From an uncultured Paracoccaceae bacterium (GTDB taxonomy: Bacteria; Pseudomonadota; Alphaproteobacteria; Rhodobacterales; Rhodobacteraceae), in contig CANLQO010000009.1 of NCBI GenBank assembly GCA_947493335.1, positions 1 through 64,000 on the forward strand: a DNA stretch of 64,000 bases. The letters run 5' to 3'. Each line of letters starts with the position of its first letter. Position 1 is the stretch's first letter. The position numbers were made by a program, and so were the translations under genes. This document shows, piece by piece, positions 23,961-51,327 of the stretch. The notes under the pieces are model-generated. The model ran no database searches. It saw nothing but the letters and a program-made list of their open reading frames with translations, and had not been told where the DNA came from.

Positions 23961-24697
23961 ATCTCTCCTCCGGAAATGGAAATGGCTTGTCCGTTCACTG
24001 AACGCGCAGCGTCCGACAATAGCCAGAGAATTGTACCCGCAATCTCGTCGGTTTGGATGAACCGTTTTTGCGGGTTGCCAGCGCAAAGGGACGCGCGGGC
24101 CTTGTCTTCGGACATGCCCGTTTTATCGATGATATTGGCGACCGAGCGATCCAGCATCGGTGTCTCGATAAAGCCGGGGCAAATGGCGTTGACCGTGATC
24201 CCCGTTGACGCCAGCTCCAACCCCAGCGCGCGCGTCAGGCCAACGACGCCATGTTTGGCCGCGCAATAGGCCGAAACATAGGGAAACCCCTTTAGCCCCG
24301 CCGTGGATGCAATCGCGATCATGCGACCTGCGCCAGCCGCCTTCATATCCGGCAATGCCGCCTGCCAGACGTTGCTGACGCCCACAAGATTGACCGCCAA
24401 CATCGCGTTCAGCACATCGGCGGACATCTTGGCAAAGGGCACGCTTTCCGCCGCACCCGCGTTTGCGACAACACCTGTGATCGGGCCATGAGTGTCGCGG
24501 GCCTTTTGAAACGCCTCTGCGACGCTGTCAGGTAGCGTTACATCACAAAGGGCATAGGACAACCCCTGCGCGGCGAGCGTTTCCTTGGTCCGGCCAAGAA
24601 TGGTGACGTCATAGCCTTGCCCCGCCAAGGTCTGCGCCACGGTTGCGCCGACGCCCGTGCCACCGCCCGTTACAATGATATGTTTGCCAGTTGTCAT
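23957..24697 (-). CDS. Short-chain dehydrogenase/reductase (3-hydroxyacyl-CoA type)
   Basis: A classic SDR: coenzyme motif [10 protein letters not shown] near the N-terminus, NAG (VVANAGAA), catalytic Ser in IASTAG, and YCAAKHG as the YxxxK box. A PGFIETPM segment follows. The ATG at 24697 overlaps the stop of the fused monooxygenase gene (ATGA). It probably reduces or oxidises a hydroxyacyl-CoA made from the dearomatised ring. Confidence 0.88.
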
Positions 24698-26985
24698 ACG
24701 CGCAATGCCTCTGCTTCCCGCTCGGCCAAACGCCAAGCCTGATCACGACCTGGTCTATACGGCAGTGGCCAAGCCGCCTGCCGGTCCCCGATCTTGGCGG
24801 CCTCGTGCAGCGTCCAATAGGGATCGGCCAGATGGGGCCTGCCCACAGCCACCAAATCCGCACGTCCCGCCATCAGAATCGAATTGGCATGGTCCGCTTC
24901 ATAGATATTGCCAACGGCCATTGTCTTGATCCCCGCCTCATTGCGGATGCGGTCACTAAAGGGCGTCTGGAACATCCGGCCATAGACTGGCTTGGCCTCT
25001 GTCGTAGTCTGACCTGCCGAGACGTCGATCAGGTCAGCGCCCGCCGCGGTAAACGCCTTGGCGACTTCAACCGCGTCCTGTGGCGTGATGCCGTCCGCCC
25101 CGACCCAATCATTGGCCGAAATGCGAACCGACATCGGTTTATGTGCAGGCCAAACCGCCCGCATTGCGGTGAAAACCTCTAACGGATAGCGCAGCCGGTT
25201 TTCCAAACTGCCGCCATAGGCATCGCGGCGCTGGTTCGACACGGGCGAGATGAACGACGACAGCAAATAGCCATGTGCCGCGTGCAGCTCGATCATGTCA
25301 AAATCAGCGGCCTCGGCCATTTGCGCCGATGCAACGAATTCATCCTTGATCGCCTGCATCTCGTCGACGGTGATTTCGCGCGGTGTCGCGTTGTTGTCTG
25401 ACCACGCGACTGCCGAGGCCGAGACCAAATCCCAATTGTCTGACACCAGCGGCATATCCATACCTTCCCAGCCAATCCGTGTTGACCCTTTGCGCCCGGA
25501 ATGGCCAATTTGGCAGCAGATTTTGGCCTCTGTTTCTTGGTGTACAAAATCCGTCAATCGGCGCCATGCGGCCTGATGTTCCGGCGCATAAAGACCGGGA
25601 CACCCCGGCGTAATCCGGCCCGTTTCGCTCACACAGGTCATCTCGGTAAAGACCAGCCCTGCCCCACCCTTGGCGCGTTCGCCATAATGGATGAGGTGCC
25701 AATCCGTGGGGCAGCCCTCCATGGCTTTATATTGCGCCATGGGCGAGACAACGACGCGGTTTTCCAACGTCATGTCGCGCATCGCAAAGGGTGCAAACAT
25801 CGGTGCGCGCAATCGGTCAGACGCCGCGACGCCGGATTGATCAAGAAACCACCGCTCTGCGCTTTCCAGCCACGCCTTGTCGCGCAAACGCAGGTTTTCG
25901 TGCGAAATCCGCTGACTGCGGGTCAGCATGGAATAATTCAACTGAACCGGGTCAAGTCCAAGGTAACGCTCGACATCCTCAAACCATTCCAGCGAATTGC
26001 GCGCGGCCGATTGTAGGCGCAGAACCTCCAGTCGTCGCTCTTCCTGATAGCGTTTGAATGCATCCTCAGGGCTGGCCTCGCTGTGGATCAATTCAGCCAA
26101 AGACACTGCACTTTCAAGCGCCAGTTTTGTCCCCGATCCGATGGAAAAATGCGCCGTCGCCGAAGCATCGCCCAACAGCACAACATTCTCGTGGTGCCAA
26201 GTTTCACACAGGACCCGCGGGAACCTGATCCATGCAGACCCACGGATGTGATGGGCGTTTGTGATGAGGGCGTGGCCATCCAAGTGATCTTTGAATATCT
26301 CTTGGCAAATCGCGATGCTGTCTTGCTGCGACATATCCGCAAAGCCGAAATTGTCGAACGTGTCCTGCGCGCATTCCACAATGAATGTCGCGGTCTCGTC
26401 ATCGAATTGATAGGCATGGGCCCAGACCCAGCCGTGTTCGGTTTCCTCAAAGATAAAGGTGAACGCGTCCGAGAATTTCTGCTTGGTGCCCAGCCAGACA
26501 AACTGGCACAAACGCTCGTCAACTTCAGGTTTGAAAGTGTCGGCATAAAGCGTGCGTGTGCGCGAATTCAATCCATCCGCCGCCACAACGATATCAAAGT
26601 CTTGGCGGTAGTCTTCGGCGCTTTTCACATCTGTTTCAAATCGAAGCTCAACCCCCAATTCTTTTGCGCGATCTTGCAAGAGCAACAGCAATTTCTTGCG
26701 CCCAATGCCGCAGAAACCATGGCCGGATGACACATGCGTCTCACCACCGTAATGCAACGCGATGTCATCCCAATAGGCAAAGTTGTCGCCGATTGCCTTG
26801 GCGCTTTGCGGATCATTCGCCGCAAGATTTCCAAGGGTTTCGTCCGACAACACCACGCCCCATCCGAATGTATCATCAAAGCGGTTTCGCTCGAATATGA
26901 CCACGTCAACTGATTGGTCGCGCAACTTCATTGAGATGCCAAAGTACAATCCAGCAGGACCGCCTCCCAAACATGCTATGCGCAT
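24694..26985 (-). CDS. 2-aminobenzoyl-CoA monooxygenase/reductase (fused)
   Basis: This 763-residue flavoenzyme is a natural fusion. The N-terminal half (about 1-390) is a salicylate-hydroxylase-like FAD monooxygenase: [10 protein letters not shown] at the start, the [14 protein letters not shown] dinucleotide motif later. The C-terminal half (about 395-763) is an Old Yellow Enzyme barrel ([39 protein letters not shown]). The combination is diagnostic of 2-aminobenzoyl-CoA monooxygenase/reductase and its salicylyl-CoA relatives, which hydroxylate and then dearomatise the ring. It is the first gene of the minus-strand operon. Confidence 0.93.
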
Positions 26986-38119: not shown

Positions 38120-40459
38120 TCACGCAAAACGCCTGCGCAGTGTCTCGGCATATTCGGTCCACACGCCAAGCGCGTGTGTCGTCCGGAAAACAGCATTGAT
38201 AAGATGCAGGTCCCGTAGCTCATCGAGCCTAATGAACAACTGCCGCAAAGAAACGAAGTTGTAGTCAGAAGCCACGGGGTCGATGGCGTCGGTGCTTGCA
38301 AAGGGAAATATCCGGTTGGGCATAACGCCAAGGCTTGGAAAATACCCCTCACCCAGTCTTTTCATAGATTCTGCGGATAGACCGGTCTGCCCCGAGATCC
38401 ACGCTGGAACGTCCTGGATATGCTCAACCGTCGTCGGCAATCTGTACCCGGGCAGCGCAATCAGGCCGCTGTGCCCTTCCCGCAATTGCGCTGCAGCGAA
38501 CTGAGACTGAGACGCAGAGAGCTTTTGTGTTCCAATGAGGATCTCACCACTCTCGGGATCTCGGGCGAGGCATGCCAGAATGACCGAATTCGTCGATACG
38601 TTTTGGGTGGGCAGAATAAATTCTAGCTCTGACGCGGCGACGACATGTTCGCTCCCATCTGCCAACGCAACTTCGTGAAACTGCGATCGCTGAATCCTGA
38701 GCCAATGCGACCGTTGATCGACCTCTTCATAGACCGCGTAATCCTTTTGCAGGGCCAGGAGGTCATCAATGGTCCGAACTTGACCAGCAAAGGTGTTTTC
38801 AACGCTGATATTTTGCCCCAGCCAGTTGCCTGGCGTGATGCCACGCTCGCGCATCAGGGCGTAGATGTTTGTCTCCAACCTCGCTTCGGGCAGCATGCCG
38901 GTTTGTGTCGCCTGTAGCAGGCTTTGCGCGTCGAAAGGGCGAAAGACCCCGTCATTGCTGAACCCCGAAAACCGGCCCGAAAGCGCGCGTTCAACCTCGG
39001 GCGGGTTCATAATTTCGACGCGCGTCGCGGTGACCCGTTCGTTCAAATCAGATGGTGCGGGATAATAGTGCAGCGCCTCGGCCTGATCCAAAAGGAGCGT
39101 ATCAGCCTGCAAACCCGCCCGGTCACTCAGGACTGCTCGGATTGCGTCGTTGATGGTCCCTTCGATGTTCGCAGCCGAGAGCGGCTCAATCATATGCCCC
39201 GACCACCGCTTATCATCGAGATTGGGGCTGATCATGCGTGGTTTTGTATTGGCGATCGGCCTTGGGTAGCGATCCTTGGCAAGGACGAAAAGCTTGCCAT
39301 CTTTCTCGAAAAACGGAAGGACATCGACAACATCTCCGCCCGGGCGGCTGACCAGATCGTAAAGGGCGCCGGTTTGGGTGTTCCGATAGGCTTTGACCTC
39401 TAGGTAAGTCGGCTTGGTGTCCGCCACACGATGTTCGCGCAATGCGATTGAATCGCCATCAGGGATTTTCTGATAGACCGAGATGAAGTTCGATGGCGGC
39501 AGCGGCAGTTGTTCCCAAAGCCGATTGAAGAGTTTGGCGTTTGGCTGATACCAGTTTTCCATGATCCACGGGTTTTCGTAGGGCGCGGAATAAAGCACGC
39601 GGGCACCCAGCTTTTCCGGCTCTGCGCGGTGTTCATCATGTGTCCAAAAGGCATACCTCTCGCGCGCCTCATCAAGAAACCGGTCCCGATATTGCATGCG
39701 CCAGATGAACTCGCGTGCATATTTTTCCTGGACAGCAAAGACGCGCCACCCCTCAGGAACAGGGCTCTGCTCGGGTATCAGCCTCTCCGTGTATTCCTCA
39801 GCGAAGAAGCCCTTGATCCGGTGGGTCGCCTCGGGTGTTTCGCCTGACCGCATGGCTTCTTTCGCATACCGCAAAAAGAATGCGGCGACAGAGAGATCGG
39901 CGTAGTTATCGCCTGTCGCCGCCCCGTCGTTCGGCAAGGCAAGAAACACCATCTCATCCGGTCGATCCGACTTGTTGAAGTCCCTGTTCATGATGAGGCC
40001 ATAGTCGCGGGTATGGCCAAGTTGGCTTTGCAGAACTTCGATGACGGTTTGCGTCCTGTAGCCCGTGAACGACTGAAATTCGTGATGGACACTCAGGTTC
40101 AGCGTCACATCCAGCGACGTTGCGCCGATATCAAAATCCCGCAGATCAGCCTGAATAAAATCGGCGTTTTCGACCTCGTCGAACTTGGTCTTTGCCGCAT
40201 TGATGAAATCACTGTCATAGTCCACGCCGATAATACGGGCCTGTGGGTATTTCATGGCAAAATACGCCGTCGTTTCACCATTGGCGCAGCCGGCATCCAG
40301 AACAACGCTGCCGGGTGAAAGCATCATATGAGCGGCGCAAAACCCCACTTTCAGCGGAATGGTCTTTTCCATCTCATCAAGAAGCGCCTCGCCTTGCAAA
40401 TGCATGGACTGCGGGTCTGTCATGTCGCTGGCCTTTGGTGGGACACATCGTTCCGTCAT
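38120..40459 (-). CDS. SAM methyltransferase fused to Nudix-like regions
   Basis: Residues about 45-165 form a class I methyltransferase: motif I VVLDAGCANGETTAYF, motif II IIGVDYDSD, and NLSVHHEF. The rest, to residue 779, is unusual. Residues about 350-480 look Nudix-like (VDVLPFFEKDGKLFVLAKDRYPRP), with a degenerate Nudix box at 439-450 (AIRAVLSDRAGL). A second, weaker such region lies at about 610-779. The degenerate box closely matches that of the NrtR regulator at the other end of this cluster. AGAAGG precedes the ATG. Substrate unknown; a nucleotide-derived molecule is a guess. Confidence 0.7.
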   Translation of the reverse strand: MTERCVPPKASDMTDPQSMHLQGEALLDEMEKTIPLKVGFCAAHMMLSPGSVVLDAGCANGETTAYFAMKYPQARIIGVDYDSDFINAAKTKFDEVENADFIQADLRDFDIGATSLDVTLNLSVHHEFQSFTGYRTQTVIEVLQSQLGHTRDYGLIMNRDFNKSDRPDEMVFLALPNDGAATGDNYADLSVAAFFLRYAKEAMRSGETPEATHRIKGFFAEEYTERLIPEQSPVPEGWRVFAVQEKYAREFIWRMQYRDRFLDEARERYAFWTHDEHRAEPEKLGARVLYSAPYENPWIMENWYQPNAKLFNRLWEQLPLPPSNFISVYQKIPDGDSIALREHRVADTKPTYLEVKAYRNTQTGALYDLVSRPGGDVVDVLPFFEKDGKLFVLAKDRYPRPIANTKPRMISPNLDDKRWSGHMIEPLSAANIEGTINDAIRAVLSDRAGLQADTLLLDQAEALHYYPAPSDLNERVTATRVEIMNPPEVERALSGRFSGFSNDGVFRPFDAQSLLQATQTGMLPEARLETNIYALMRERGITPGNWLGQNISVENTFAGQVRTIDDLLALQKDYAVYEEVDQRSHWLRIQRSQFHEVALADGSEHVVAASELEFILPTQNVSTNSVILACLARDPESGEILIGTQKLSASQSQFAAAQLREGHSGLIALPGYRLPTTVEHIQDVPAWISGQTGLSAESMKRLGEGYFPSLGVMPNRIFPFASTDAIDPVASDYNFVSLRQLFIRLDELRDLHLINAVFRTTHALGVWTEYAETLRRRFA

Positions 40460-40485
40460 GACAGACCTTCTGATCTGGCAAATGT

Positions 40486-41769
40486 CTAACTGTTTTTGCC
40501 GCCCTGCCCCGGGTTTTCTCCGGGTATCGATGCCTCATTCAAGGCAATCGCGGCCGACGAACGCGTCGGCCCTTTTGAGATCAGATTGATCGGCAGGCCA
40601 ACAAAGTCTGCAATCACATCGGGCAGGTCCTCTGCCGTCACGGATCGCGCGACGCCGTCAAGATAGACTGTCGCCGCGCCACGCAATTGGTCAAGACAGG
40701 TCAGCCCCAGCCCAGCTTTAACCTTCACCGGGGCCCCTTTTGCCAGCCCAAGGTCGCGGGTGATCGTGTCGCGCAACAAGGACAGATCGAGCGGTGCTTC
40801 CCTGATCACGCCCTGCCACGTGTTCTGCGCGTTGGTCAGGTCAACGATGTCGGCCCAGTCAATCTTGCCCACCCCATCTGGTCCGGGCATTTCGTAAGGC
40901 AACGGGCCTGCGCCATGACGTGTTGCATAGGCGCGCGTCATGTAGATCGCCTTGATTTCGCGGATCTGCGCCTCTTCTGCGATCGTCAGCATGTTTCTGA
41001 TGCCGGTATGGGACCGGGTCACATGGGGAAAGACGCCCCAGGCCATATCGAGCTGCAGTCCTTGCGCGCCCTCAAACACGACAACCTCACAATCTTCGAG
41101 TTCTGTATCCGGCCGAAGGGACACCTTGGCCGTGAATTCGGCACAGTTGCGCAGATAGGGTGCGATCAGATCGGCTTTGCCTGTCAGGACATCGCGCAGT
41201 GGCGAAGCCTGAACGTCGAGACCCAACGCCGCTAGCCGTTTGGGAACCCAGGTGTCCCGTATCTGTTCAAGACGCTGGCGAAGGTCGTCTGACCACAGGT
41301 CTTCTGCACACAGCGCTGGCCCTTTTTCCTGCCGCTCGATCGTTTCGCCAATTCCCAACCCGCAAGAGCCGTGGCGCCCGGCATCCCGCTGCGATTCAAT
41401 CGCCTGGTTGATTGCCATATCCCAGGGGGTTGTCACAGCGGCACGGGGATCAATCGTGATCCCAAGCGGTGTTGCACCCAACAACGCCAGATCGGCGAGT
41501 TCCTGTTGCAACATCATAGGATGCGCGATGAAAAACTGGCTGAGGTGGGTTTCAGCACCCGCAAAAGTGCCCGATCCGATGTGGTGAAAGACGTGCCGCC
41601 CACCATCGGGCCTTTGCACACCGTGCCCGGCCTGTGCACCGCCGTTTGAACGGACGACGGTGACACGCTTTCCCTCGGTCATCAGACGGTACGCAAGGGC
41701 ATCAACGGCAAGCCCCTTGCCCTCGTCGCCCCAATTCGCACCGATCACGGCATAAGATGTCTGTGGCAT
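40486..41769 (-). CDS. Divergent adenylosuccinate synthetase (PurA) paralogue
   Basis: The PurA framework is retained: GDEGKG at 14-19 with catalytic Asp15, GGAQAGH at 43-49 with catalytic His49, FEGAQG at 232-237, TRHGAGP at 283-289, and the C-terminal ISKGPTRS. Departures from PurA are the Asn of GGNNAGH (Gln here), TTGRGIGP reduced to SCGLGIGE, and complete loss of the TTGRRRR aspartate-binding loop. It may therefore couple a nucleotide to a different amine or carry out a different GTP-driven ligation. A housekeeping purA role is unlikely. Length 427 residues. Confidence 0.8.
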   Translation of the reverse strand: MPQTSYAVIGANWGDEGKGLAVDALAYRLMTEGKRVTVVRSNGGAQAGHGVQRPDGGRHVFHHIGSGTFAGAETHLSQFFIAHPMMLQQELADLALLGATPLGITIDPRAAVTTPWDMAINQAIESQRDAGRHGSCGLGIGETIERQEKGPALCAEDLWSDDLRQRLEQIRDTWVPKRLAALGLDVQASPLRDVLTGKADLIAPYLRNCAEFTAKVSLRPDTELEDCEVVVFEGAQGLQLDMAWGVFPHVTRSHTGIRNMLTIAEEAQIREIKAIYMTRAYATRHGAGPLPYEMPGPDGVGKIDWADIVDLTNAQNTWQGVIREAPLDLSLLRDTITRDLGLAKGAPVKVKAGLGLTCLDQLRGAATVYLDGVARSVTAEDLPDVIADFVGLPINLISKGPTRSSAAIALNEASIPGENPGQGGKNS

Positions 41770-41824
41770 GGTCTTTGCCTCTGTTTTGGGAATGGCGGGG
41801 CCCGGTTGGGCCCCGCGCGTTGGG

Positions 41825-42745
41825 TCAGTCCAGAAACTGGACGCCACCATTGCCTGCCCCTGTTGCGGGCAGGTTTTTCAAAGCCTCTGCCACCACCAAA
41901 GCGGTGGACCCCGACCAGCTGGCCGCAACATCGGCGGTTCTTGCGCCTTCATTCACCTGAATGAGCGACACAACCGTTTCTGCCAGCGCATCGATCGATT
42001 GCAGCTCGATTGTCCGCTCTGGCAAAAGGGCTTTCCAGCTGCGCAAAACGTCATCCGACCGGTAACTGGCAAATCCTTCGTTCATCAGGACGATGTGGTA
42101 GACGTCCCAATTCCGCTGCGCCATCGCAAGGATTTCCTTGCCGGTCAGATCACGCTCCGCCGGGATGTCGAGGAATTTCCTGATCTGATCCTTGGTCGCA
42201 CCATCAAGGACGGGTTCATCACCAATGGTGAAAAGGTATCCTTTCTGCCCGCGCTTTTCGATGGCATCCGCCGAAACTTTGGTGGCGGCAAAAAGGTGGG
42301 GCAGCAAATAGGATTCACCACTGTTGCCACCGCCACCACCCTCAAGCCATAGCTCGCGCGCTTGTTTTGCCACGCGGATGTCGGCCTCAAACTGCGTAAC
42401 CTGGAGCGGCGCCCTGTCGTAATAGGCGTCCCCAATGGCCATCATCATGATGTGCGGATCGGTCACCGGCTTGCGGTCGTAGATTTCCGTGGCAAGCGTG
42501 TTCAGACCATCGCGCATCAACTGCTCTGCGACCATGCCCATCGACCCGGTCACATCACCCGCAAGAATGATTGGGGTCGATTGGGGGTTGTCGGCACTAT
42601 CCCGGCTTTCACGCATTTTGATTTTTGCCGGATCAAATTCATCCTTCATCGACGATGAGGAGAAGATCGTCCGACGGCTTTTGCCCGAAATCGTTGCGCT
42701 GCTGTAGCTGGCCCATGCGCCAGCGTCCCATCTTCCATTTCCCAT
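41825..42745 (-). CDS. VWA-domain protein
   Basis: The von Willebrand A fold shows its metal-site motif DVTGSMG at the start, with a Thr/Asp in later loops (GGGGGNSGESY, TIGDEPVL). The N-terminus has a conserved Gly/Ser-rich stretch (GRWDAGAWASYSSATISGKS) probably involved in regulation. AAAGGAGG lies 6 bases before the ATG at 42745, and a copy of the 29-base motif lies further upstream. VWA and kinase pairs occur in TerY-type stress systems. It is 306 residues and cytoplasmic, with no membrane helix. Confidence 0.85.
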   Translation of the reverse strand: MGNGRWDAGAWASYSSATISGKSRRTIFSSSSMKDEFDPAKIKMRESRDSADNPQSTPIILAGDVTGSMGMVAEQLMRDGLNTLATEIYDRKPVTDPHIMMMAIGDAYYDRAPLQVTQFEADIRVAKQARELWLEGGGGGNSGESYLLPHLFAATKVSADAIEKRGQKGYLFTIGDEPVLDGATKDQIRKFLDIPAERDLTGKEILAMAQRNWDVYHIVLMNEGFASYRSDDVLRSWKALLPERTIELQSIDALAETVVSLIQVNEGARTADVAASWSGSTALVVAEALKNLPATGAGNGGVQFLD

Positions 42746-42793
42746 TGTGGCCTCCTTTGGCTTTGGGTGTTTGAGGGTTAGGTAGTCGATTAA

Positions 42794-42829
42794 CTTGCAC
42801 AATGCAAGTTGCATCTTGCAAATTAATGA
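42794..42829. promoter_or_regulatory. Putative NrtR operator before the VWA gene
   Basis: This contains the palindrome ACTTGCA-CAA-TGCAAGT (42794-42810) and continues into a 29-base block (42801-42829) matching 25 of 29 bases in the block at 43893-43921. Two copies at two promoters of one cluster point to a shared regulator. Confidence 0.65.
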
Positions 42830-42856
42830 GACTGCGTGTTGGCTCCCCTACTCTAC

Positions 42857-43861
42857 TTAGGTGTTTTCGTAGATTTCCCGGGCAGAAACCGGGTATTTTG
42901 CAAAGCGACGCGGGCCCCAGCCAGTTTCGAGCGCGTTTTGCCACCCGGCATAGTCCGCCACTGCGTCCTCAGCTGGCGGCAGGTTGATCCACGCGGCAAT
43001 CGGTTCTGGCAGTGATGAGACATTGCCATTTGTGCCGTGTGGATCACCCAGCGCATCGCGCATAACCTGCCGGACCAGTTCCCGATCAACGACAGATTGG
43101 GCCAACTCTTCGCGATGTGACAGCCGCGGAACAAGATCGAGTGTTCTGCCGGGCAAAGCCGCAGGCCGGGTCCCGATGCGAGTCGCAAAGCCCCAACCGG
43201 CCACAAGCGTGACGGTATGTCTTTCCGGATTGATCAGCATATGCTCGGCCGAAATCGCGCCATGCATGATCCCGGCATAAGACAACCAAGCCGCAATATT
43301 CATCAGGCCAGAACATAGCCACGCCGCGTGCTTATCCGGCATCGGCCCCTTTTTTCGCAAAAGGTCGGCCAACAAGACGTCCTTTGGATCCTTCCTCACA
43401 ATGACGACCGTACTCGCATCAGTAAGGGTTTCGACACGCAAGAGCTCTGGCAAGGAAGCGGCCATTTGCCGTTCCATCTCGGCACCGGCAAAGGTGAAGC
43501 TTTTCAGCACCTCCACTTCCCGCACGGCAAGCCGTTGAAATGTCTGTGGAAAGATCGTTGCCAGTGTATTGCGGTTGACGATGATTTCGCCCTGATCAGC
43601 CTGCAATGTGTACAGTGGTGAGATCCCGAGTTTGCGGCCATCATCCGTCGTCAGTACCCGTCGCGATATCGCGTCGATGCCGCGCAGATTTTTCCGCAAG
43701 GACAGAAGATGCCGGAAGACTTCATGTGACTTCGCGTGATCGCAAATGTCAGGGTGCCAGTGTTTGATCAGGGCCGAGATTTGCTTTTCACCATCCATCG
43801 CAAATCGCGACATGGCATCGTGCCGGGTCATGCCCAGAATTTCGTCCGCTGTCAGTGCCAT
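42857..43861 (-). CDS. J-domain-like protein with a kinase-like (pseudokinase) domain
   Basis: The N-terminal 60 residues resemble a J domain, including HPD at 36-38 (KHWHPDICDH) and EVFRHLLSLRK. The rest is kinase-like, but the catalytic loop reads HGAISAEHMLI (200-210), with no Asp, and the DFG position reads AGWGFA (221-226). Catalysis therefore looks impaired, and a binding or scaffold role is more likely. AAGGAG lies 7 bases before the ATG. It lies upstream of the VWA gene on the same strand with 111 bases between, including the shared motif. Confidence 0.7.
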   Translation of the reverse strand: MALTADEILGMTRHDAMSRFAMDGEKQISALIKHWHPDICDHAKSHEVFRHLLSLRKNLRGIDAISRRVLTTDDGRKLGISPLYTLQADQGEIIVNRNTLATIFPQTFQRLAVREVEVLKSFTFAGAEMERQMAASLPELLRVETLTDASTVVIVRKDPKDVLLADLLRKKGPMPDKHAAWLCSGLMNIAAWLSYAGIMHGAISAEHMLINPERHTVTLVAGWGFATRIGTRPAALPGRTLDLVPRLSHREELAQSVVDRELVRQVMRDALGDPHGTNGNVSSLPEPIAAWINLPPAEDAVADYAGWQNALETGWGPRRFAKYPVSAREIYENT

Positions 43862-43892
43862 TAGGTTGCTCCTTCCGACATCGTCATATTAA

Positions 43893-43921
43893 AATGCAAT
43901 ATGCAACTTGCTAATTAATGA
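43893..43921. promoter_or_regulatory. Putative NrtR operator between the kinase-like and NrtR genes
   Basis: The 29-base block (AATGCAATATGCAACTTGCT... ending AATTAATGA) is repeated with four differences at 42801-42829. It lies in the 101-base divergent intergenic region, so a repressor there could control both the regulator gene and the kinase-like gene. Confidence 0.65.
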
Positions 43922-43962
43922 TATAAGGGCGCTGAGACAAGCAAAATCCTGGAGGCCACGGA

Positions 43963-44622
43963 TTGCAGTTGCAAATCATCGCGACGGTTGACGCCGTCAT
44001 CCTGACCATTGACGGCGGCGCGCTCAAAGTTGTGCTTCACGAACGCCCAAACGACCCGTTTCAAGGTATGGCCGCACTGCCGGGCGGCTATATCAGGGAG
44101 GACGAAGACAAAAACGCCGAAGATGCCATGCGCCGTGTGCTCAGCGACAAGGCGGGATTGTCAGGCTTCTACCTCGAACAGCTTGCAACGTATTCCGGGC
44201 CGGATCGCGACCCTCGGGGCTGGTCGATCTCGGTCGCCTATCTGGCGCTGGTCCCTGCCGATCAGTTGAAGATTGACAAGAGCAAGGCCGCTCTTTTCCC
44301 AGTCGATGACCTGCCTGCTCTGCCGTTTGACCATGGCCGGATTCTACATGATGCGGTTCAACGACTACGTGGCAAAGGTGCCTATTCAACCTTGCCAGCA
44401 TCCTTACTGAGCAAGACGTTCACATTGTCCGAAATGCATGCCGCCTATGAAGTGGCGCTTGGGATGCAAATTGACGCAAGCTCTTTCCGGCGCAAGGTGT
44501 TGGCGCTGAACATCCTCAAGGATCGTGCGGAAATGCGACAGGACGGCAATAAGCGCCCTGCCAAGACCTATGCGCTCAAAGAAGGGGTGACGACGTTCAA
44601 TCGCACACTTGGGGCGACATAG
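43963..44622 (+). CDS. NrtR-type Nudix regulator
   Basis: The start is a TTG with GGAGG 7 bases upstream. Residues about 1-140 form a Nudix domain whose box is degenerate: GGYIREDEDKNAEDAMRRVLSDKAGL has lost the catalytic Glu residues, as in NrtR regulators that bind but do not cleave nucleotides. The C-terminal 80 residues are a winged-helix DNA-binding region (ASSFRRKVLALNILKDRAE). It is divergent from the cluster on the minus strand. Ligand probably NAD-related or another nucleotide made or consumed by the cluster. Confidence 0.82.
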   Translation: MQLQIIATVDAVILTIDGGALKVVLHERPNDPFQGMAALPGGYIREDEDKNAEDAMRRVLSDKAGLSGFYLEQLATYSGPDRDPRGWSISVAYLALVPADQLKIDKSKAALFPVDDLPALPFDHGRILHDAVQRLRGKGAYSTLPASLLSKTFTLSEMHAAYEVALGMQIDASSFRRKVLALNILKDRAEMRQDGNKRPAKTYALKEGVTTFNRTLGAT

Positions 44623-44748
44623 TGATGGCTCGATGGTCGGCGATTCAATTTCGCTGGGCGGTGACGCAAGAAGAGTAAGCCAAATGCAACAATGCTTGCT
44701 TTTTTGGGGCACGTATTACATAAGTATTCCGGCGAGAAGGAACAGATC

Positions 44749-44973
44749 ATGATGCAACTCAAACTCCGCTCCGTTGGAAATTCGGTTGGGACAACGATCC
44801 CAAAATCCTTGCTGGAGCGGATGCAGGTCAGCGAGGGTGACACGCTTTATGTGCAGGAAAACGCCGACGGATCGTTTACACTGTCGGCCTATGACCCTGA
44901 CGTTGTGGCGCAGATCAATGCCGCGCAAGAGGTGATGAACCGGGATCGCGAAATCATGAAAGCGCTCGTATGA
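44749..44973 (+). CDS. AbrB/MazE-type antitoxin
   Basis: The 74-residue protein has the swapped-hairpin AbrB DNA-binding start (QLKLRSVGNSVGTTIPKSLLERMQVSEGDTLYV) and a helical tail that would neutralise the toxin. I chose the first of two tandem ATGs at 44749, with GAAGGA upstream. Its stop overlaps the toxin start by four bases. Doc toxins more often pair with Phd; this AbrB pairing is a known but less common variant. Confidence 0.85.
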   Translation: MMQLKLRSVGNSVGTTIPKSLLERMQVSEGDTLYVQENADGSFTLSAYDPDVVAQINAAQEVMNRDREIMKALV

Positions 44974-45365
44974 CGGACCCGGCTTGGGTTTTGTCTCAGA
45001 CGGTATTCCTCGCCCAAGATCAATCAATTCGGACTTTTGGCGGAACGCCGGGCGTGCGTGACGCGTCACTGGTGGAAAGTGCGCTGGCCGCGCCGCAGCA
45101 GCGCTGGGGCTATGAGGACCCAAAGCCGGACCTTTTCGATCTGGCCGCGACCTATGCCGCATCCCTGTCACAGAACCATGGGTTCATCGATGGGAACAAG
45201 CGCGCCGGGCATATCGCCGCGCACAGCTTTCTGATCCTGAATGGGGTGAAGGTTACTGCACCCGACCCCACAACGGCGGTTTTGCAAATCGAGGCGCTTG
45301 CGACCCGTCAGATCACCCGAGATGCCTATGCCACCTACTTGCGCAGCCTGACAGAAGGGGACTGA
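44970..45365 (+). CDS. Doc (Fic-fold) toxin
   Basis: The 131-residue protein has the Fic/Doc active site NHGFIDGNKRAGH with catalytic His and the Asn-Lys-Arg that bind phosphate. The rest is the compact Doc helical bundle. Doc phosphorylates EF-Tu and stops translation. It overlaps the antitoxin gene (ATGA) and sits just before the plasmid replication genes, where it likely helps replicon maintenance. Confidence 0.9.
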   Translation: MTDPAWVLSQTVFLAQDQSIRTFGGTPGVRDASLVESALAAPQQRWGYEDPKPDLFDLAATYAASLSQNHGFIDGNKRAGHIAAHSFLILNGVKVTAPDPTTAVLQIEALATRQITRDAYATYLRSLTEGD

Positions 45366-45572: not shown

Positions 45573-45588
45573 GTTGACAGTTGTCAAC
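45573..45588. promoter_or_regulatory. parS-like palindrome 2 overlapping the repC stop
   Basis: GTTGACAGTTGTCAAC differs by one base from the perfect parS-like palindrome. It overlaps the TGA stop of repC. Confidence 0.7.
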
Positions 45589-46780
45589 TTGCCCGCAAGA
45601 GCGCCATGACCATTGGCGCCGGTGAGAAGCCCCCTGCCCCGGCCTTTTCGGTCAATGACCGCAGGTAGCCGCCGGGCGAGCGGATGTCATCGACCCTCTG
45701 CAGGATCGCCGCAACCGTCACAGCCGCCGCCTCTGGCCCCATGGCGCGGCCCGCCGCGGTCCAGGCGTCTTGGCTGATCCCCATCATCCCCCGTACCTCG
45801 CTGGCTGTGGCGACCAATTCGTGCCAATGGCGGATGTCATGGCGCGCATAGGGCGCGATATCCGGGCAAGCCTTCATGACCAGCCCAAGGGGGAGCGGTG
45901 GTGCGCCTTGCCGGTCCGGTTCAGATGGCGCACAGGTTTCGCCCCCTGCTTTTTCTAAGCAAGGTTCAAGATCAGAAGAGTCTTCTTTTGAATTATGAAT
46001 GTGCCGCTCAATTTGGCGGTGGCTGCCGCTCATTTCTTCTGTTTTGAGAAGCTCACGCAAACCCGCCAGCATATGTTCCAGCTGCCCTTTCACCACATCA
46101 AGCGCATCAGCATCAAGCACGCGGCGTGTCTGGCGGTGAAGGTCAAGCATCTGGCCGTCAATTCGGTCCCAATCGGCTGACACGCCGCTGTCGCGGCCAT
46201 AGAGCGCCATCTGGAGCGCGTCACGCTTCATCAAGCTGATTGCCTCTCTCAGCCGCTTGATGCGCTCTGCGGCCTCCTGCGCGGCTGTGGCGGCCTGTGC
46301 GATCTCGGCCGCGCGGACGAGCAAGGGACGCAGATCAAAGCCGAAGGCGTGGGCAATCGCGCCCCCTGCCCCGCGTGCGGCGTAGCGTTTGCCATTTGGG
46401 CTGTCGTGGCGCTGGATCAACCCGGCGTGCCCCAGGGCCGCCAGATGACGCCGCAACGTGCTTTCAGCCATGCCATGGGCCCTTGTGGAAAGCGCCCGGT
46501 TTGACGGAAAGACCACAAGCTGCGCTTCAGCGTCTAGCACCTGGCCCTTGTGGAATGACAAGAGGGCGTTCAGGACGGTCAGTGCCCGGTCAGAAAGCCC
46601 AAAGGCGGCACGTGCGGTGCAGATATCCCGGAACAAGGCCCACTTGTCGATCTGGTCGACGGCAACGGGCGCTTGCGCCTCTTCCGCGCGTTTCATCAGG
46701 GTAGCCGTCAGCGGCCGCCCGAAAGGCGTTTTGGTCATGACGTTCATTAATGCTTCACGAGACAAAAGTTTTTCGTCCAC
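45584..46780 (-). CDS. repC: RepC replication initiator
   Basis: The 398-residue protein fits RepC: LFRDICTARAAFGLSDRALTVLNALLSFH and FPSNRALSTRAHGMAESTLRRHLAALGHAGLIQRHDSPNGKRY in the N-terminal DNA-binding half, then a variable middle, and a C-terminal domain ending in DDIRSPGGYLRSLTEKAGAGGFSPAPMVMALL. The origin of repABC replicons usually lies inside repC. The marked start is GTG at 46780; a later ATG (46747) is possible. RepC is limiting for copy number, and its translation is normally held back by the antisense RNA encoded just upstream. Confidence 0.92.
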   Translation of the reverse strand: MDEKLLSREALMNVMTKTPFGRPLTATLMKRAEEAQAPVAVDQIDKWALFRDICTARAAFGLSDRALTVLNALLSFHKGQVLDAEAQLVVFPSNRALSTRAHGMAESTLRRHLAALGHAGLIQRHDSPNGKRYAARGAGGAIAHAFGFDLRPLLVRAAEIAQAATAAQEAAERIKRLREAISLMKRDALQMALYGRDSGVSADWDRIDGQMLDLHRQTRRVLDADALDVVKGQLEHMLAGLRELLKTEEMSGSHRQIERHIHNSKEDSSDLEPCLEKAGGETCAPSEPDRQGAPPLPLGLVMKACPDIAPYARHDIRHWHELVATASEVRGMMGISQDAWTAAGRAMGPEAAAVTVAAILQRVDDIRSPGGYLRSLTEKAGAGGFSPAPMVMALLRAS

Positions 46781-46794
46781 CGGACTCGGTGCCT

Positions 46795-46810
46795 GTTGAC
46801 AGCTGTCAAC
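46795..46810. promoter_or_regulatory. parS-like palindrome 3 overlapping the antisense RNA promoter
   Basis: A perfect GTTGACAGCTGTCAAC. Its TTGACA (46796-46801) is also the -35 box of the predicted antisense RNA promoter on the plus strand, so RepB bound here would compete with RNA polymerase. Confidence 0.75.
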
Positions 46811-46824
46811 TATCAGCCTTAGAT
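46796..46824 (+). promoter_or_regulatory. Promoter of the antisense RNA
   Basis: Perfect -35 TTGACA (46796-46801), 17-base spacer, and -10 TTAGAT (46819-46824). It points into the repB-repC intergenic region, opposite to the rep genes. Confidence 0.7.
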
Positions 46825-46830
46825 TCGGAA

Positions 46831-46884
46831 GTGCTAAGAACGAACCAAAGGCCTCTCGGGATCTATTCCGGGGGGCTTTTTCTT
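46831..46884 (+). ncRNA. Antisense counter-transcribed RNA (ctRNA) controlling repC
   Basis: Between the promoter above and a strong terminator lies a transcript of about 54 bases, antisense to the repB-repC leader. The size, position and orientation match the ctRNAs of repABC plasmids, which limit RepC synthesis and cause incompatibility. The exact start is inferred as about 7 bases after the -10 box. Confidence 0.75.
46851..46883 (+). terminator. Intrinsic terminator of the ctRNA
   Basis: GCCTCTCGG pairs fully (with two G-U pairs) with CCGGGGGGC around an 8-base loop, followed by TTTTTCT. This is a standard intrinsic terminator on the plus strand. Confidence 0.8.
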
Positions 46885-46926
46885 ATGCTTCTGTCGGTGT
46901 CGTGCCTCCTGTTGTGACTGCTCTGG

Positions 46927-47838
46927 TTATGCGTCGGACCGGTTGATCCAGTCGCGGTGCATGGCGGGCAGTTGGTCCGTGACCCACTGCGCGAAATCGG
47001 GATCGTCAAGCGTGAGGACGGTCCGTTTGCCTTTGGTTGACATTTGCCCCAATGCGGTGCCGTCCGCGCCGGTAACGGGTGCTGGTGGACGGGCAGGGGG
47101 CTTGGGCGTTTTGAGAGCGGACATGACGGCGTCAAAGCGCGCGTCAGAATTTTCACCTGTCGCGTGTGCGACCAGATCCTTGCGACCAATCTTGTCCGCC
47201 AGCGCCAGCCAGCGGTCACGGCCGACGCCGGGGGCAGAGCCGATCGCCTCAATCAGGTTGACCGGAATGCGGTCGGCCACCGAGAGCAGACGCGAGATCA
47301 GCGTCTTGTCCATCGACAGGGCGTCACAGATCACTTTGCGGTCATAGCCCGCATCCCGCATCTGCCGGGCAAAATTGGCCCGTTCAATGAACGACAGATC
47401 CCGCCGGGCAGAGTTCTCTTGCCCCTGCGCCATGATCAAGGCTTTGTCGTCCAGGTCCCGGATCAGGGCTTTGACGGGCATCCCCAGATCCAACATGGCC
47501 GCAACACGACGTCTGCCATAGACGATCTGGTAGCGTTCAGGGTCATTCGGGTTGACCCGGAGCATGACCGGAACTTGCTGTCCGTATGACTCTATTGATA
47601 CCTTCAGAGACAGAAAATCTGGGTCAACGGGATCAAGCCGGTCGCGCAGACCTGCGGGGTCAATCAGACGGGGATCAACCTCTACGATGGCGCGGCGCTT
47701 GAGATCGTCAATCGAACGGCTGACAGCACCAATTGCGCCGGTCTGATACCGCGGCTTGGCGGTATCGACGCGGGCAGGGGGGTCAACCGGGGTTTCGGCA
47801 GGGTCCATCAACCCCTTGAGCAGGTCCTTACGTGCCAT
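46927..47838 (-). CDS. repB: RepB partition protein (ParB family)
   Basis: The protein has the ParB box pattern (VDPDFLSLKVSIESYGQQVPVMLRVNPND, then ERYQIVYGRRRVAAM) followed by a helix-turn-helix (DRKVICDALSMDKTLISRLLSVADRI) that would bind parS. I start it at the ATG at 47838, which overlaps the repA end by 11 bases. Length is 303 residues. Three parS-like palindromes lie around repC. Together with RepA it segregates the replicon and autoregulates the operon. Confidence 0.93.
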   Translation of the reverse strand: MARKDLLKGLMDPAETPVDPPARVDTAKPRYQTGAIGAVSRSIDDLKRRAIVEVDPRLIDPAGLRDRLDPVDPDFLSLKVSIESYGQQVPVMLRVNPNDPERYQIVYGRRRVAAMLDLGMPVKALIRDLDDKALIMAQGQENSARRDLSFIERANFARQMRDAGYDRKVICDALSMDKTLISRLLSVADRIPVNLIEAIGSAPGVGRDRWLALADKIGRKDLVAHATGENSDARFDAVMSALKTPKPPARPPAPVTGADGTALGQMSTKGKRTVLTLDDPDFAQWVTDQLPAMHRDWINRSDA

Positions 47839-49027
47839 GACTGCGCCCCCATGCCGATTGCACCAGATCCTCAATCTCGCCGTTCACCGCGTTGAGGCTT
47901 TCCATCGCACGTTCATAGGTGGCACGGGTGAATTGACCCTTTTCCACCTCATACAGAGTCTGTTTCGTGATCCCGGCGTCGGAAATCGCGGTTGATTTCA
48001 GCACCGTGTGGTTGAGCACGTGATCCCCGAACATGTTGCGCATGAAACCCACCATCTGGTTTTGCGGCCCGTCGCCGGGTTCATACCGGGTCACGACATA
48101 GCGCAGCCAGTCATAGGACATATCGCCGCCTGCATCGGCTACAACGCCTAAGAGGTTGGAAACCATCAACAAAAACTGGCACATCGACATAACATCCAGC
48201 ATCTGGGGATGGACCGTCACCAGCACAGCGGTGGCCGCGGAAAGCGCCGACATGGTCAGATAGCCAAGCTGCGGCGGGCAATCGATGACGACGACGTCAT
48301 AGTCCTGTTCTACCGTCGCAAGCGCGTCGCCGACCCTTGTAAAAAAGAGGTTTCCGTCGCGCTGCATCAGGGCCCGGGGGGTGTCGTGTTCGAACTCCAT
48401 CAAATCCAGATTGCCGGGGATGATGTCGAGGTTGGTGAAATAGCTTTTCTGGATCACATCCCGGAGGGGCAGGGGGTCATCATAGCGGATCGCATCATAA
48501 AGCGTGCCGCCATCAAGCAGGTCAAATTCGGGCTGAAACCCATGCAGGGCAGAAAGGCTGGCCTGGGGATCAAGATCAATCGCCAGCACCCGATAGCCAT
48601 CAAGCGCCATCTTCTGCGCCAGATGCGCGGCGGTGGTGGTTTTGCCCGATCCGCCCTTGAAATTGATGACGGTGATCACCTGAAGATGATCACCGTCGCG
48701 GCGCCCTGGCAGATAGGCACCGGGTGATTTCGTTCCAGACTCTAGCAGTACCCTTAGAGCCTGAATGTCGGCCGGAGAGTAGTATCTACGACCACCTGTC
48801 CGCACCTCGGGAGAGGGGCCACGTCCATCGAGATGCAACTTGCGCAGATAGGCGTCCTTGACGCCCAGCAGATCGGCCGCTTCACCGGATGTGAACTTGC
48901 GCAATTCGCGCCGCGCATCCGGCGGGAACAATTGCGCGCGATGCGCTTGCAAACGCGCCGACAACCGTTCAGCGTGATGTCCGACCAATGCGTCGATCCG
49001 TCTGCGATCCGTCATCTGTCTGCCCAT
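47828..49027 (-). CDS. repA: RepA partition ATPase (ParA family)
   Basis: A ParA-type Walker ATPase with an N-terminal helix-turn-helix (KFTSGEAADLLGVKDAYLRKLHLDG), the deviant Walker A KGGSGKTTT, Walker A-prime-like DLDPQAS, and VVVIDCPPQLG. This organisation is the RepA of repABC operons, where the N-terminus binds its own operator. I prefer the ATG at 49027; a GTG at 49066 would run through the inverted repeats just upstream. It is first in the repABC operon. Confidence 0.93.
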   Translation of the reverse strand: MGRQMTDRRRIDALVGHHAERLSARLQAHRAQLFPPDARRELRKFTSGEAADLLGVKDAYLRKLHLDGRGPSPEVRTGGRRYYSPADIQALRVLLESGTKSPGAYLPGRRDGDHLQVITVINFKGGSGKTTTAAHLAQKMALDGYRVLAIDLDPQASLSALHGFQPEFDLLDGGTLYDAIRYDDPLPLRDVIQKSYFTNLDIIPGNLDLMEFEHDTPRALMQRDGNLFFTRVGDALATVEQDYDVVVIDCPPQLGYLTMSALSAATAVLVTVHPQMLDVMSMCQFLLMVSNLLGVVADAGGDMSYDWLRYVVTRYEPGDGPQNQMVGFMRNMFGDHVLNHTVLKSTAISDAGITKQTLYEVEKGQFTRATYERAMESLNAVNGEIEDLVQSAWGRSHGT

Positions 49028-49063
49028 GTTCAAACCGTTTGTTACGGTTTTTATCGTTTGAAC
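49028..49063. promoter_or_regulatory. Inverted repeats before repA, probable autoregulation site
   Basis: GTTCAAAC (49028-49035) and GTTTGAAC (49056-49063) form a perfect eight-base inverted repeat. AAACCGT/ACGGTTT (49032-49050) is nested within it. This sits directly before the repA ATG, where RepA is known to repress its operon in other repABC plasmids. No Shine-Dalgarno sequence is visible. Confidence 0.65.
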
Positions 49064-49272
49064 CACCTCTTAGCGTATATGAATGGCAAGGAAAGGGGAT
49101 TCGGGCAAGCGAATTGTGCAGATGTTGCGCCGTCAGCGGCCCCACACACAAGAGGGGCGTCAAGATCGCACCGATAACTTGCAGAGATTTATCCAAAACT
49201 TCGCCTAAAAATTGACAACTATTGCGGGTATGCGCATGTTGACTAAGGGTATGTGCGGAAACGGGTTATTTC

Positions 49273-51327
49273 ATGAATGCGCCTTTCAAACAGGACGCCA
49301 GGATGGGCGTACTGACGACTATTTTGGGCAAGGACACACTGAACCTTGTGCGCTTCCAGGGCAGCGAACACCTAAACGACCTGTTCTGCTATCGCGTCGA
49401 GGCATTGGCCGCACGCAATGATGTGGATTTTGATGGGCTGATTGGCACGCACGCCACGGTGACGCTCTCGTCTTTTGATCAACCCGACACGCCATTTGAC
49501 GGCATTGTCACCGAGGCGCAGCTGCTGGGCCCGGGCGAGAACGGATGGCGCCATGAGCTGACACTGCGGCCGTGGTTCTGGATGCTGGGGCTGCGCCGCA
49601 AGCAACAGATTTATCACGAAATGACCGTCGTGCAGATCCTGCAAGAGGTCTTTGCGCCCTATACCGGGCTGGGCGAGCCTGCCTTTGAGGTCAGGCTGGC
49701 GGGCGACTATCCGGTGCTGGAATATACCGTACAATACCGCGAGAGCGATTTGGCCTTTGCCTGCCGGATGATGGAGCGGTTTGGCATCAGCTATCACTTT
49801 GCCCATGACGCAGGCAGCCACACGCTGGTGCTGACCGACAGCAGCACCGCCCATGATGATCTGCCGGGCAAGTCCCGCAAATACATCAGCACAGGGGAGG
49901 GGCACCGCGCCAATGAGGAACATTTCTGGCTGATGCGCCCGACGCGCCGGATGACAACGGGGGCAATCCGGCTGACGGACTACAACTTTAAGATGCCAAC
50001 CGCCGCGATGGAGGCAGACCGTACGGGTGACGCCCAATACGAAGAGGGGCAGATCGAAAGCTACGACTATCCCGGCGACTATCTGGATCAGGCCACCGGC
50101 AAGAAGGTGGCCCGGATGCGGGTCGATCAGGAGCGCGGGCAGGATCCGCGGCACCAGGCCACCGGCGATTGTGCCAGCCTGCGGGCCGGGCAGATCGTGG
50201 ACATCAAGGGCGACAAGGTGCCCGGTGTGGGCAAATCGCTGTGCCTTTCGGCGCAACATAGCTATGTCGCGGGCGGCTATGGCAGTGACAGTGACAGCGG
50301 CGCGCCGATGTATGAGGGCACTTATCTGCTGATGCCCAGCACTGCGCCGTTGCGTCCCGAACGCAAGACGCCGCGCGCGTTGGTACAGGGGCCGCAAACG
50401 GCCACGGTGGTGGGTGAGGGCGAGATCGACTGCGATGAATACGGGCGCATTCTGGTGCATTTTCACTGGGACCTCGACAAGCGCTATTCGATGCGATGCC
50501 GGGTCAGCCAGAACTGGGCTTCAAAAGGGTGGGGCGGCATGGTCATTCCACGGATCGGGATGGAGGTCGTGGTCGAATTCCTTGAAGGCGACCCCGACAA
50601 GCCGCTGGTGACGGGCTGCGTTTACAACGGCAAGAACGATGTGCCGTATCCGCTGCCAGAGCATAAGACGCGGTCGGTCTTTCGCAGTGACACGCACAAA
50701 GGGGCGGGCTTTAACGAATTCACGTTCGAGGACGAACGCGGCGACGAGCGCATCTATCTGCATGCGCAGAAGGATCATGAGGTTCATATCCAGAACAACA
50801 GCGCCAAGCGCGTTGACGTCAGCGAGGTTGAATCCATCGGCAACAGCAAGTTTTCGGAGATCGGCAAGGACTTCAATTTTCAGATTGGAGGCAATGCCGT
50901 GACCGCGATTGGTGTGCCTGACGTCAGTGTGCATGCGCCAAAGCCGATGGAAGCCTATGACGACGGGCCATTGCAACTGGCCTATAAAACGACGATCCAC
51001 GGAAAGCCGGATGCCGGACGCGGCCATTACAAACTGATGGTGGCGCAATCCATGACCGAAGTGATTGGTACGCAGTCCAATACCCGGATCGGGTCGAGCA
51101 GCACGATGGCGATCGGCACCAGTTTGCAGATGAATGTTGGCGCGCAAAAGAATGAAACTGTAGGTGACGGATCCTATGAGACCGTGGGCGGTGGTCGCTA
51201 CATGCATGTCGGCAAGGAAATCGACCTGCGCTGCGGCGCGTCACGGTTCATCATGAAACGGTCTGGCGAGATTGAGCTGGTGGGGACCCACATCAAGCTG
51301 CGCGCCAAGAAGATTGATCTGAACTAG
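49273..51327 (+). CDS. vgrG: Type VI secretion spike protein VgrG
   Basis: The 684-residue protein has the gp27-like N-domain (RFQGSEHLNDLFCYRVEAL), the gp5-like OB region (DEYGRILVHFHWD..MRCRVSQNWASKGWGG), and the repeat-rich beta-helix spike near the C-terminus (repeats such as HVGKEIDLR, TVGDGSYETVGG). It has no fused effector domain. It would trimerise at the tip of the T6SS tube. It begins a plus-strand operon with PAAR and DUF4123 genes, but no T6SS sheath or baseplate genes are in the window. Confidence 0.95.
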   Translation: MNAPFKQDARMGVLTTILGKDTLNLVRFQGSEHLNDLFCYRVEALAARNDVDFDGLIGTHATVTLSSFDQPDTPFDGIVTEAQLLGPGENGWRHELTLRPWFWMLGLRRKQQIYHEMTVVQILQEVFAPYTGLGEPAFEVRLAGDYPVLEYTVQYRESDLAFACRMMERFGISYHFAHDAGSHTLVLTDSSTAHDDLPGKSRKYISTGEGHRANEEHFWLMRPTRRMTTGAIRLTDYNFKMPTAAMEADRTGDAQYEEGQIESYDYPGDYLDQATGKKVARMRVDQERGQDPRHQATGDCASLRAGQIVDIKGDKVPGVGKSLCLSAQHSYVAGGYGSDSDSGAPMYEGTYLLMPSTAPLRPERKTPRALVQGPQTATVVGEGEIDCDEYGRILVHFHWDLDKRYSMRCRVSQNWASKGWGGMVIPRIGMEVVVEFLEGDPDKPLVTGCVYNGKNDVPYPLPEHKTRSVFRSDTHKGAGFNEFTFEDERGDERIYLHAQKDHEVHIQNNSAKRVDVSEVESIGNSKFSEIGKDFNFQIGGNAVTAIGVPDVSVHAPKPMEAYDDGPLQLAYKTTIHGKPDAGRGHYKLMVAQSMTEVIGTQSNTRIGSSSTMAIGTSLQMNVGAQKNETVGDGSYETVGGGRYMHVGKEIDLRCGASRFIMKRSGEIELVGTHIKLRAKKIDLN

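Follow-up and report, generated by a model that had tools for sequence, protein, structure and literature searches.

What could an enzyme of the PurA family be doing beside a VWA protein, a J-domain pseudokinase and a regulator of the NrtR type? The question is raised by a stretch of 64,000 nucleotides (the window) from contig CANLQO010000009.1 of assembly GCA_947493335.1, an uncultured Paracoccaceae bacterium. An earlier note on this DNA described four genes on one strand, for a methyltransferase said to be fused to Nudix-like regions, a PurA paralogue, a VWA protein and a J-domain pseudokinase, together with a divergent NrtR-type regulator, and took them for a candidate nucleotide-based stress system. 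All five open reading frames (ORFs) are present (Table 1). We find that the J-domain pseudokinase, the VWA protein and the PurA-like enzyme are encoded by a real and widespread module.

A gene set shared by bacteria and phages

The bacterial and viral collections were queried with the VWA alignment and nothing else, which kept co-occurrence of the other genes from being built into the sample. The loci analysed are the best 80 of 539 confirmed VWA relatives in bacteria and the best 80 of 469 in viruses, and distant copies are therefore under-sampled. In bacteria, a PurA-like gene lies downstream of the VWA gene, on the same strand, within 3 kb in 79 of the 80 loci and within 0.5 kb in 71; in the single locus that lacks it, the sequence ends 2 bp past the VWA gene. 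The corresponding viral counts are 76 within 3 kb, 77 within 9 kb and 61 within 0.5 kb, and the three viral loci without the enzyme have 15, 2,026 and 3,290 bp of sequence left past the VWA gene. Taken together, 156 of the 160 loci hold a co-strand pair within 9 kb (132 within 0.5 kb), and the lack of co-occurrence that the earlier note had named as a ground for abandoning its proposal is clearly not what we observe. A same-strand pseudokinase gene was recognised within 3 kb of VWA in 56 bacterial and 40 viral loci, and in every one of them it lies upstream of VWA. The expectation that the set would be conserved in other genomes was thus borne out for these three genes, which are often accompanied by an NrtR-type regulator.

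The carriers are few and the genes tightly linked, and we therefore regard the module as rare and patchy. A VWA search of 385 genomes of the class (E 1e-20) found three, the window's own among them, and all three have the triad; within the window's family, the VWA protein occurs in 1 of 198 genomes, again the window's own. Even so, one small gene set recurs across distant bacteria and phages. By their database labels, the bacterial carriers are Alphaproteobacteria, Competibacter relatives, Desulforapulum, Geomonas, Clostridia, Actinomycetota and Melainabacteria. Relatives of the VWA protein were found in 206 of 50,697 phage records and in at least 469 viral contig stretches, and the phages include Bixzunavirus (Bxz1-like) mycobacteriophages grown on M. 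smegmatis. One of these, MoMoMixon, is annotated with a kinase (gp256), a VWA protein (gp257) and a PurA-like protein (gp259), and in Vibrio and Rhizobium phages the VWA gene adjoins the PurA-like gene. On a tree of the VWA protein (FastTree, single gene), the label switches between bacterial and viral 11 times, six of them forced by starred branches, and the closest relatives of the window copy are alphaproteobacterial.

Beyond NrtR, the next cluster of bacterial neighbours (24 loci) consists, where inspected, of antisense shadow ORFs of the module genes, and the widest cluster after these covers 12 bacterial loci. Eight clostridial loci carry two tandem VWA genes ahead of the PurA-like gene. 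The Allorhizobium copy (L001:10473-19152) is flanked by AAA ATPase, DUF5682, DUF4132, VWA and SWIM genes, which make up another VWA-type set.

The enzyme and its partners

The paralogy to PurA claimed for the enzyme stands: the protein matches Pfam Adenylsucc_synt with 152 bits, and its AlphaFold model (predicted local distance difference test, pLDDT, 90.3) has the PurA fold along its full length. When the model was used in a structure search, ranks 1-33 were PurA and ranks 34-43 PurZ-type; the PHROG match is phrog_1211. Databases file the enzyme as adenylosuccinate synthetase, and the NCBIfam purA score of 118.6 does not reach the cut-off of 395.55; the PurZ score (34.8 vs a cut-off of 300) also falls short and is below those of the PurA models. 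An ordinary PurA is encoded on another contig of the same genome, and the PurA-like protein is 25% identical to it (31% over the matched region).

We aligned 151 rows of the PurA-like family, near-copies included and the window sequence present twice, with four ordinary PurAs. Each position of the P-loop GDEGKG is conserved in 95-100% of the rows, the VTxS threonine in 97%, and His76 and Gln263, which we take to be the catalytic residues of PurA, in 100%; the roles of the canonical residues that bind inosine monophosphate (IMP), guanosine triphosphate (GTP) and aspartate, the aspartate loop included, are likewise assumed here. The guanine motif TxLD is retained at 81-86%, with the TKLD lysine changed to cysteine (TCLD in the consensus). 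The aspartate loop TxTGRxRR, which the earlier note had reported as missing, is altered family-wide to QGxxR, and only its last arginine survives (Arg350, 98%). The IMP-phosphate segment GTTGRGIGP has become HGSCGxGxxET. In addition, the family has acquired residues of its own, near-invariant at 92-98% (Gln73, Asp144, Asn148, His160, Ser162, Glu169, Arg173) or at 100% (Arg306, His312, Asn340, Gln346), and 20 columns are invariant in 60 rows. Judged from these alignments and the model, the protein looks like an enzyme that is still active but whose substrate has changed, probably GTP-driven and with another acceptor or amine.

The VWA family is nearly invisible to Pfam, whose VWA model finds no match in the window protein and matches 1 of 84 relatives, weakly (E 0.0058). 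The assignment is nevertheless upheld by the predicted fold and the metal ion-dependent adhesion site (MIDAS) motif. The AlphaFold model (pLDDT 91.8) resembles VWA/integrin I-like domains, with template modelling (TM) scores by query length of ~0.32-0.46 in the 50 rows shown, and 99-100% of 178 rows have the MIDAS motif D-x-T-x-S; these rows include near-copies and the window sequence twice. Twenty-two columns, MIDAS residues among them, are invariant in 84 rows; by its alignment, this family is conserved like the PurA-like enzyme. The protein also matches PHROG phrog_2971 (3.8e-44).

The third protein is a J-domain pseudokinase, as had been proposed. Its J-domain is recognised by Pfam DnaJ in 39 of 54 relatives (E 0.01), and HPD is present in 73 of 98 rows, with nothing aligned at the site in 21 further rows; the window copy has no Pfam DnaJ match, though HPD is present. 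Profile matches in the PDB are to DnaJ and, modestly, to kinases. The kinase motifs are mostly lost, DFG having changed to GGW in 77 of 98 rows, and the window protein has HGA for HRD and AGW for DFG, with neither the HRD aspartate nor a VAIK-like lysine. However, the HRD aspartate is kept in 13 of 98 rows and a VAIK-like lysine (by a rough pattern) in six, both actinobacterial rows included, which speaks against a uniformly dead kinase family. Since two loci (L003, L006) and a few others keep one or the other residue, the loss of activity may be a repeated event. Separately, a family of ~244 amino acids adjoins VWA upstream in seven viral loci and lies one gene away from it in an eighth, and one of its members has a weak zinc-ribbon match. 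As these eight loci have no recognised pseudokinase, the ~244-residue protein may replace it.

The methyltransferase gene begins 26 nucleotides after the PurA-like gene and is therefore probably co-transcribed with it. The protein matches PADLOC methyltransferase models. The Nudix regions attributed to it could not be confirmed: Pfam gives no Nudix match even at E 10, and in a one-to-one comparison with the NrtR Nudix domain the top profile alignment, over approximately residues 374-500, reaches E 0.12, which is suggestive of Nudix character in the middle part only. No relative was found at E 1e-3 across the fetched bacterial, plasmid and viral loci, and no viral contig matched in a search reaching close relatives only. 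Among the family genomes, 38 of 198 match, its own included, and in the other 37 genomes the matches listed fall within residues 9-179, the methyltransferase end; two Bacillus plasmid records match ~40% of the protein, over residues 20-331. The fused form thus has no relative in the loci, family genomes, plasmids or viral contigs searched, and we rejected it as a core part of the system, contrary to the original proposal. As far as these searches reach, it appears private to the window locus.

Regulator, phage neighbours and replicon

The divergent regulator also proved to be of the NrtR type, with a winged helix (Pfam NrtR_WHD, 4e-17) and a Nudix-like sensor (NUDIX, 2e-8); its NCBIfam NrtR score is 141 vs a cut-off of 400, and the window's genome yielded no second NrtR_WHD match. 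Among 88 bacterial loci, 44, from several phyla, have an NrtR-like gene no more than 6 kb from VWA; counted in the 88 are the window itself, six plasmid loci retrieved with PurA-like and one retrieved with VWA. By eye, most NrtR rows have a degenerate Nudix box, and two Clostridia (L055, L086) have one that looks intact. The spacers contain a recurrent hexamer: in 34 spacers adjoining a minus-strand NrtR gene (two near-copies dropped), TTGCAA occurs 43 times, vs 1.3 expected from random stretches or 1.4 from shuffles, and 19 spacers have at least one. No gene of nicotinamide adenine dinucleotide (NAD) metabolism was recognised among the eight proteins scanned in the window operon.

In phages, the recurrent neighbours, each family in 5-8 of 80 viral loci, are a protein with a zinc-ribbon-like end, NAMPT-type NadV, NADAR, a calcineurin-type phosphoesterase, DNA and RNA ligases, Thg1 and Band 7. 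NADAR and the NAPRTase family each occur in 14 of the 80 viral records. The distance between VWA and NADAR is at most 10 kb in 8 of 13 viral records, where chance would give 2.4 (P 0.00015); for the NAPRTase family the count is 8 of 14, where chance would give 2.6 (P 0.0002). For this test one near-copy was dropped and module positions were set by hand, and the families share records. An earlier run on 50 hand-picked records gave weaker values (NADAR 4/9, P 0.027; NAPRTase 4/8, P 0.008). An annotated Rhizobium phage has phosphoribosyltransferase-like and nicotinamide mononucleotide (NMN) adenylyltransferase/Nudix genes ~3-4 kb upstream. The proximity of NadV-family and NADAR genes to some phage copies is a hint of a link to NAD and ADP-ribose.

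The coordinates of the window locus are collected in Table 1, where the starts given for the VWA and PurA-like proteins are likely because conservation begins at these positions. The same contig carries a RepABC replication/partition cassette (RepC, RepB, RepA) at 45584-49066, and is therefore probably a plasmid or chromid. Directly after the NrtR gene, beside the replication genes, a MazE/AbrB-type antidote and Doc/Fic toxin pair (44692-45365) forms a plasmid addiction module. By eye, 17896-26985 holds kynureninase-, tryptophan 2,3-dioxygenase-, CoA ligase- and aminobenzoyl-CoA monooxygenase/reductase-like genes for tryptophan/anthranilate breakdown, and 49273-51327 a VgrG-like type VI secretion tip protein with small genes downstream.

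Table 1. Positions of the module, its regulator and the adjoining elements in the window
Feature	Position	Strand	Remarks
J-domain + pseudokinase protein	42857..43861	minus	334 amino acids; first gene of the module; HPD, PDB profile matches
VWA/MIDAS protein	41825..42745	minus	ORF extends to 42814; likely start ATG at 42745
PurA-like enzyme	40486..41769	minus	ORF extends to 41850; likely start ATG at 41769
Methyltransferase protein, long C-terminal part of unproven Nudix nature	38120..40459	minus	
NrtR-type regulator, divergent	43963..44622	plus	degenerate Nudix sensor + winged helix
Operator-like element AGCAAGTTGCATATTGCA	43895..43912	minus	in 101-bp divergent spacer; half-form, no exact TTGCAA

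Interpretation and known systems

The reading that we prefer, and consider quite possible if not quite probable, is that of a mobile accessory module. Its core would be the PurA-family enzyme and its MIDAS-type VWA partner, usually joined by the J-domain pseudokinase as an adaptor and, in many bacteria, by an NrtR-type switch. The gene set, its order and its occurrence across phages, plasmids and bacteria are direct outcomes of the computations, as are the conservation of the phosphoryl-transfer residues and the replacement of the acceptor/aspartate pocket. The enzyme would spend GTP on activating an oxo group on a purine-type nucleotide that is not free IMP, and the activated nucleotide would then be joined to an amine other than aspartate, or else hydrolysed or exchanged. 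The VWA protein and the pseudokinase may form a complex with the enzyme, controlling or delivering the substrate, and the J-domain would recruit Hsp70. NrtR might keep the operon repressed through TTGCAA-type sites and release it once a ligand of the Nudix type, be it ADP-ribose or some related nucleotide, accumulates; passages of PMC9503650 describe NrtR proteins as sensing ADP-ribose. The likeliest setting would be NAD/ADP-ribose-linked nucleotide metabolism in phage-host conflict or another stress. The involvement of a nucleotide, at which the earlier note had guessed, is in our judgment supported.

Several observations count against this reading. Its statements on substrate, product and protein interactions are predictions. 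Of the 80 loci in each set, 24 bacterial and 40 viral ones show no recognised pseudokinase within 3 kb of VWA, and NrtR was not seen within 6 kb in half of the 88 bacterial loci, so that both are either optional or missed. The C-terminal SxGPxR motif is retained in only about half of the 151 PurA-like rows. TTGCAA is missing from 15 of the 34 spacers, and its exact form from that of the window; moreover, the hexamer was picked after the spacers had been viewed and many loci are from related Rhizobiaceae, so its enrichment is not an independent test. As for NADAR and the NAPRTase family, 66 of the 80 viral records lack the one and 66 the other, with many fragments among them, and in records of at least 100 kb the proximity to VWA is weaker (NADAR 3/7, P 0.005; NAPRTase 2/8, P 0.08). 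The positional test counted related phages as independent and, as it had no control phages, the NAD link stays a hint. Nor need NrtR mean NAD, since regulators of this family also serve sugar genes, as AraR does (PMC4666351). Finally, the PADLOC 2.0.0 defence models gave no match for the PurA-like, VWA and NrtR proteins, and E 0.035 for the pseudokinase.

Among the alternatives, we consider it unlikely that the genes form a PurZ-like pathway that supplies phage DNA or RNA with a modified purine (deoxy)nucleotide, the bacterial copies being captured phage genes. PurZ has the same fold, and the wealth of phage relatives and the repeated virus/bacteria switches on the tree are what such a pathway would lead one to expect, but the PurZ model scores far below its cut-off and below the PurA models, and the bacterial copies often have their own regulator and operator-like repeats. 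No Lyase_1 (adenylosuccinate-lyase-family) gene was found in the 80 viral records either, although many of these are fragments and the lyase could come from the host. That the module is merely an extra PurA for ordinary purine synthesis is very unlikely: the P-loop and catalytic residues are retained, yet the aspartate loop is replaced across the whole family, the NCBIfam purA cut-off is missed by a wide margin and the same genome has an ordinary purA.

More doubtful than the PurZ-like pathway, though less so than an extra PurA, is a protein-modifying complex in which the VWA protein and the J-domain pseudokinase pick client proteins and the PurA-like enzyme couples a purine nucleotide via C6 to a protein amine where PurA would use aspartate. 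The set does join chaperone-type partners to an enzyme of a ligase family in which the site for a small-molecule amine has been replaced; however, the pseudokinase was not recognised in 64 of 160 loci, and we know of no precedent for the joining of a purine nucleotide to protein by a PurA-like enzyme, which counts against it. We see a similarly slim chance for the broader notion of a GTP-driven complex whose VWA/J-domain pair selects clients and which links a nucleotide, either a purine one or one derived from NAD, to a protein or some other large amine; if true, it would be a new kind of nucleotide modification common to phages and bacteria. To a Ter-type stress system, to which the earlier note had linked the locus, we give next to no credence. 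VWA and kinase-like proteins do occur together in the set, but TerD was not found in the window's genome (the one genome examined, with no genome-wide search for other Ter genes), and no Ter gene or phosphatase partner is among the eight neighbouring proteins scanned; we rejected this candidate for the absence of TerD.

Returning to the mobile accessory module, if its reaction is new, it would extend PurA-family chemistry beyond PurA and PurZ and might represent a new nucleotide weapon or shield between phage and host. To our knowledge, no system shares the composition of the J-domain pseudokinase, VWA and PurA-like set, and a search of the open PMC literature (no preprints, few subscription journals) recognised no publication that describes it, in agreement with the earlier note. 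As far as these searches show, the gene system is undescribed.

The known systems that come nearest share individual parts. Passages of PMC9503650 describe systems centred on an ADP-ribosylglycohydrolase that carry Nudix or WYL regulators and vWA chaperones; a Nudix-sensor regulator, a VWA protein and a conflict setting are in common with our locus, but no ADP-ribosylglycohydrolase or phosphatase domain was found in the window operon, and the terms "adenylosuccin", "PurA" and "dnaj" are absent from the main text of that paper. The vWA-MoxR ternary systems with effector kinases (passages of PMC7159879) likewise combine VWA proteins with catalytically dead kinases, whereas no MoxR ATPase was found in the window operon, and "pura" is absent from the text of that paper. 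Compared with NrtR regulators of NAD metabolism, the window regulator has the same Nudix-like sensor and winged helix, divergent position and spacer repeats, but sits on the module instead of on recognised NAD genes. Phage PurZ (succino-aminodeoxyadenylate synthase) belongs to the same superfamily and also occurs in phages, whereas the PurA-like enzyme is closer to PurA by the models and travels with a VWA protein, a J-domain pseudokinase and NrtR. With PurA itself, the enzyme has in common the fold, the P-loop, the catalytic histidine and glutamine, the VTxS threonine and, in part, the guanine-site TxLD, but differs in the aspartate loop, the IMP-site segment and the TKLD lysine; its chemistry may be a variant of PurA after all.

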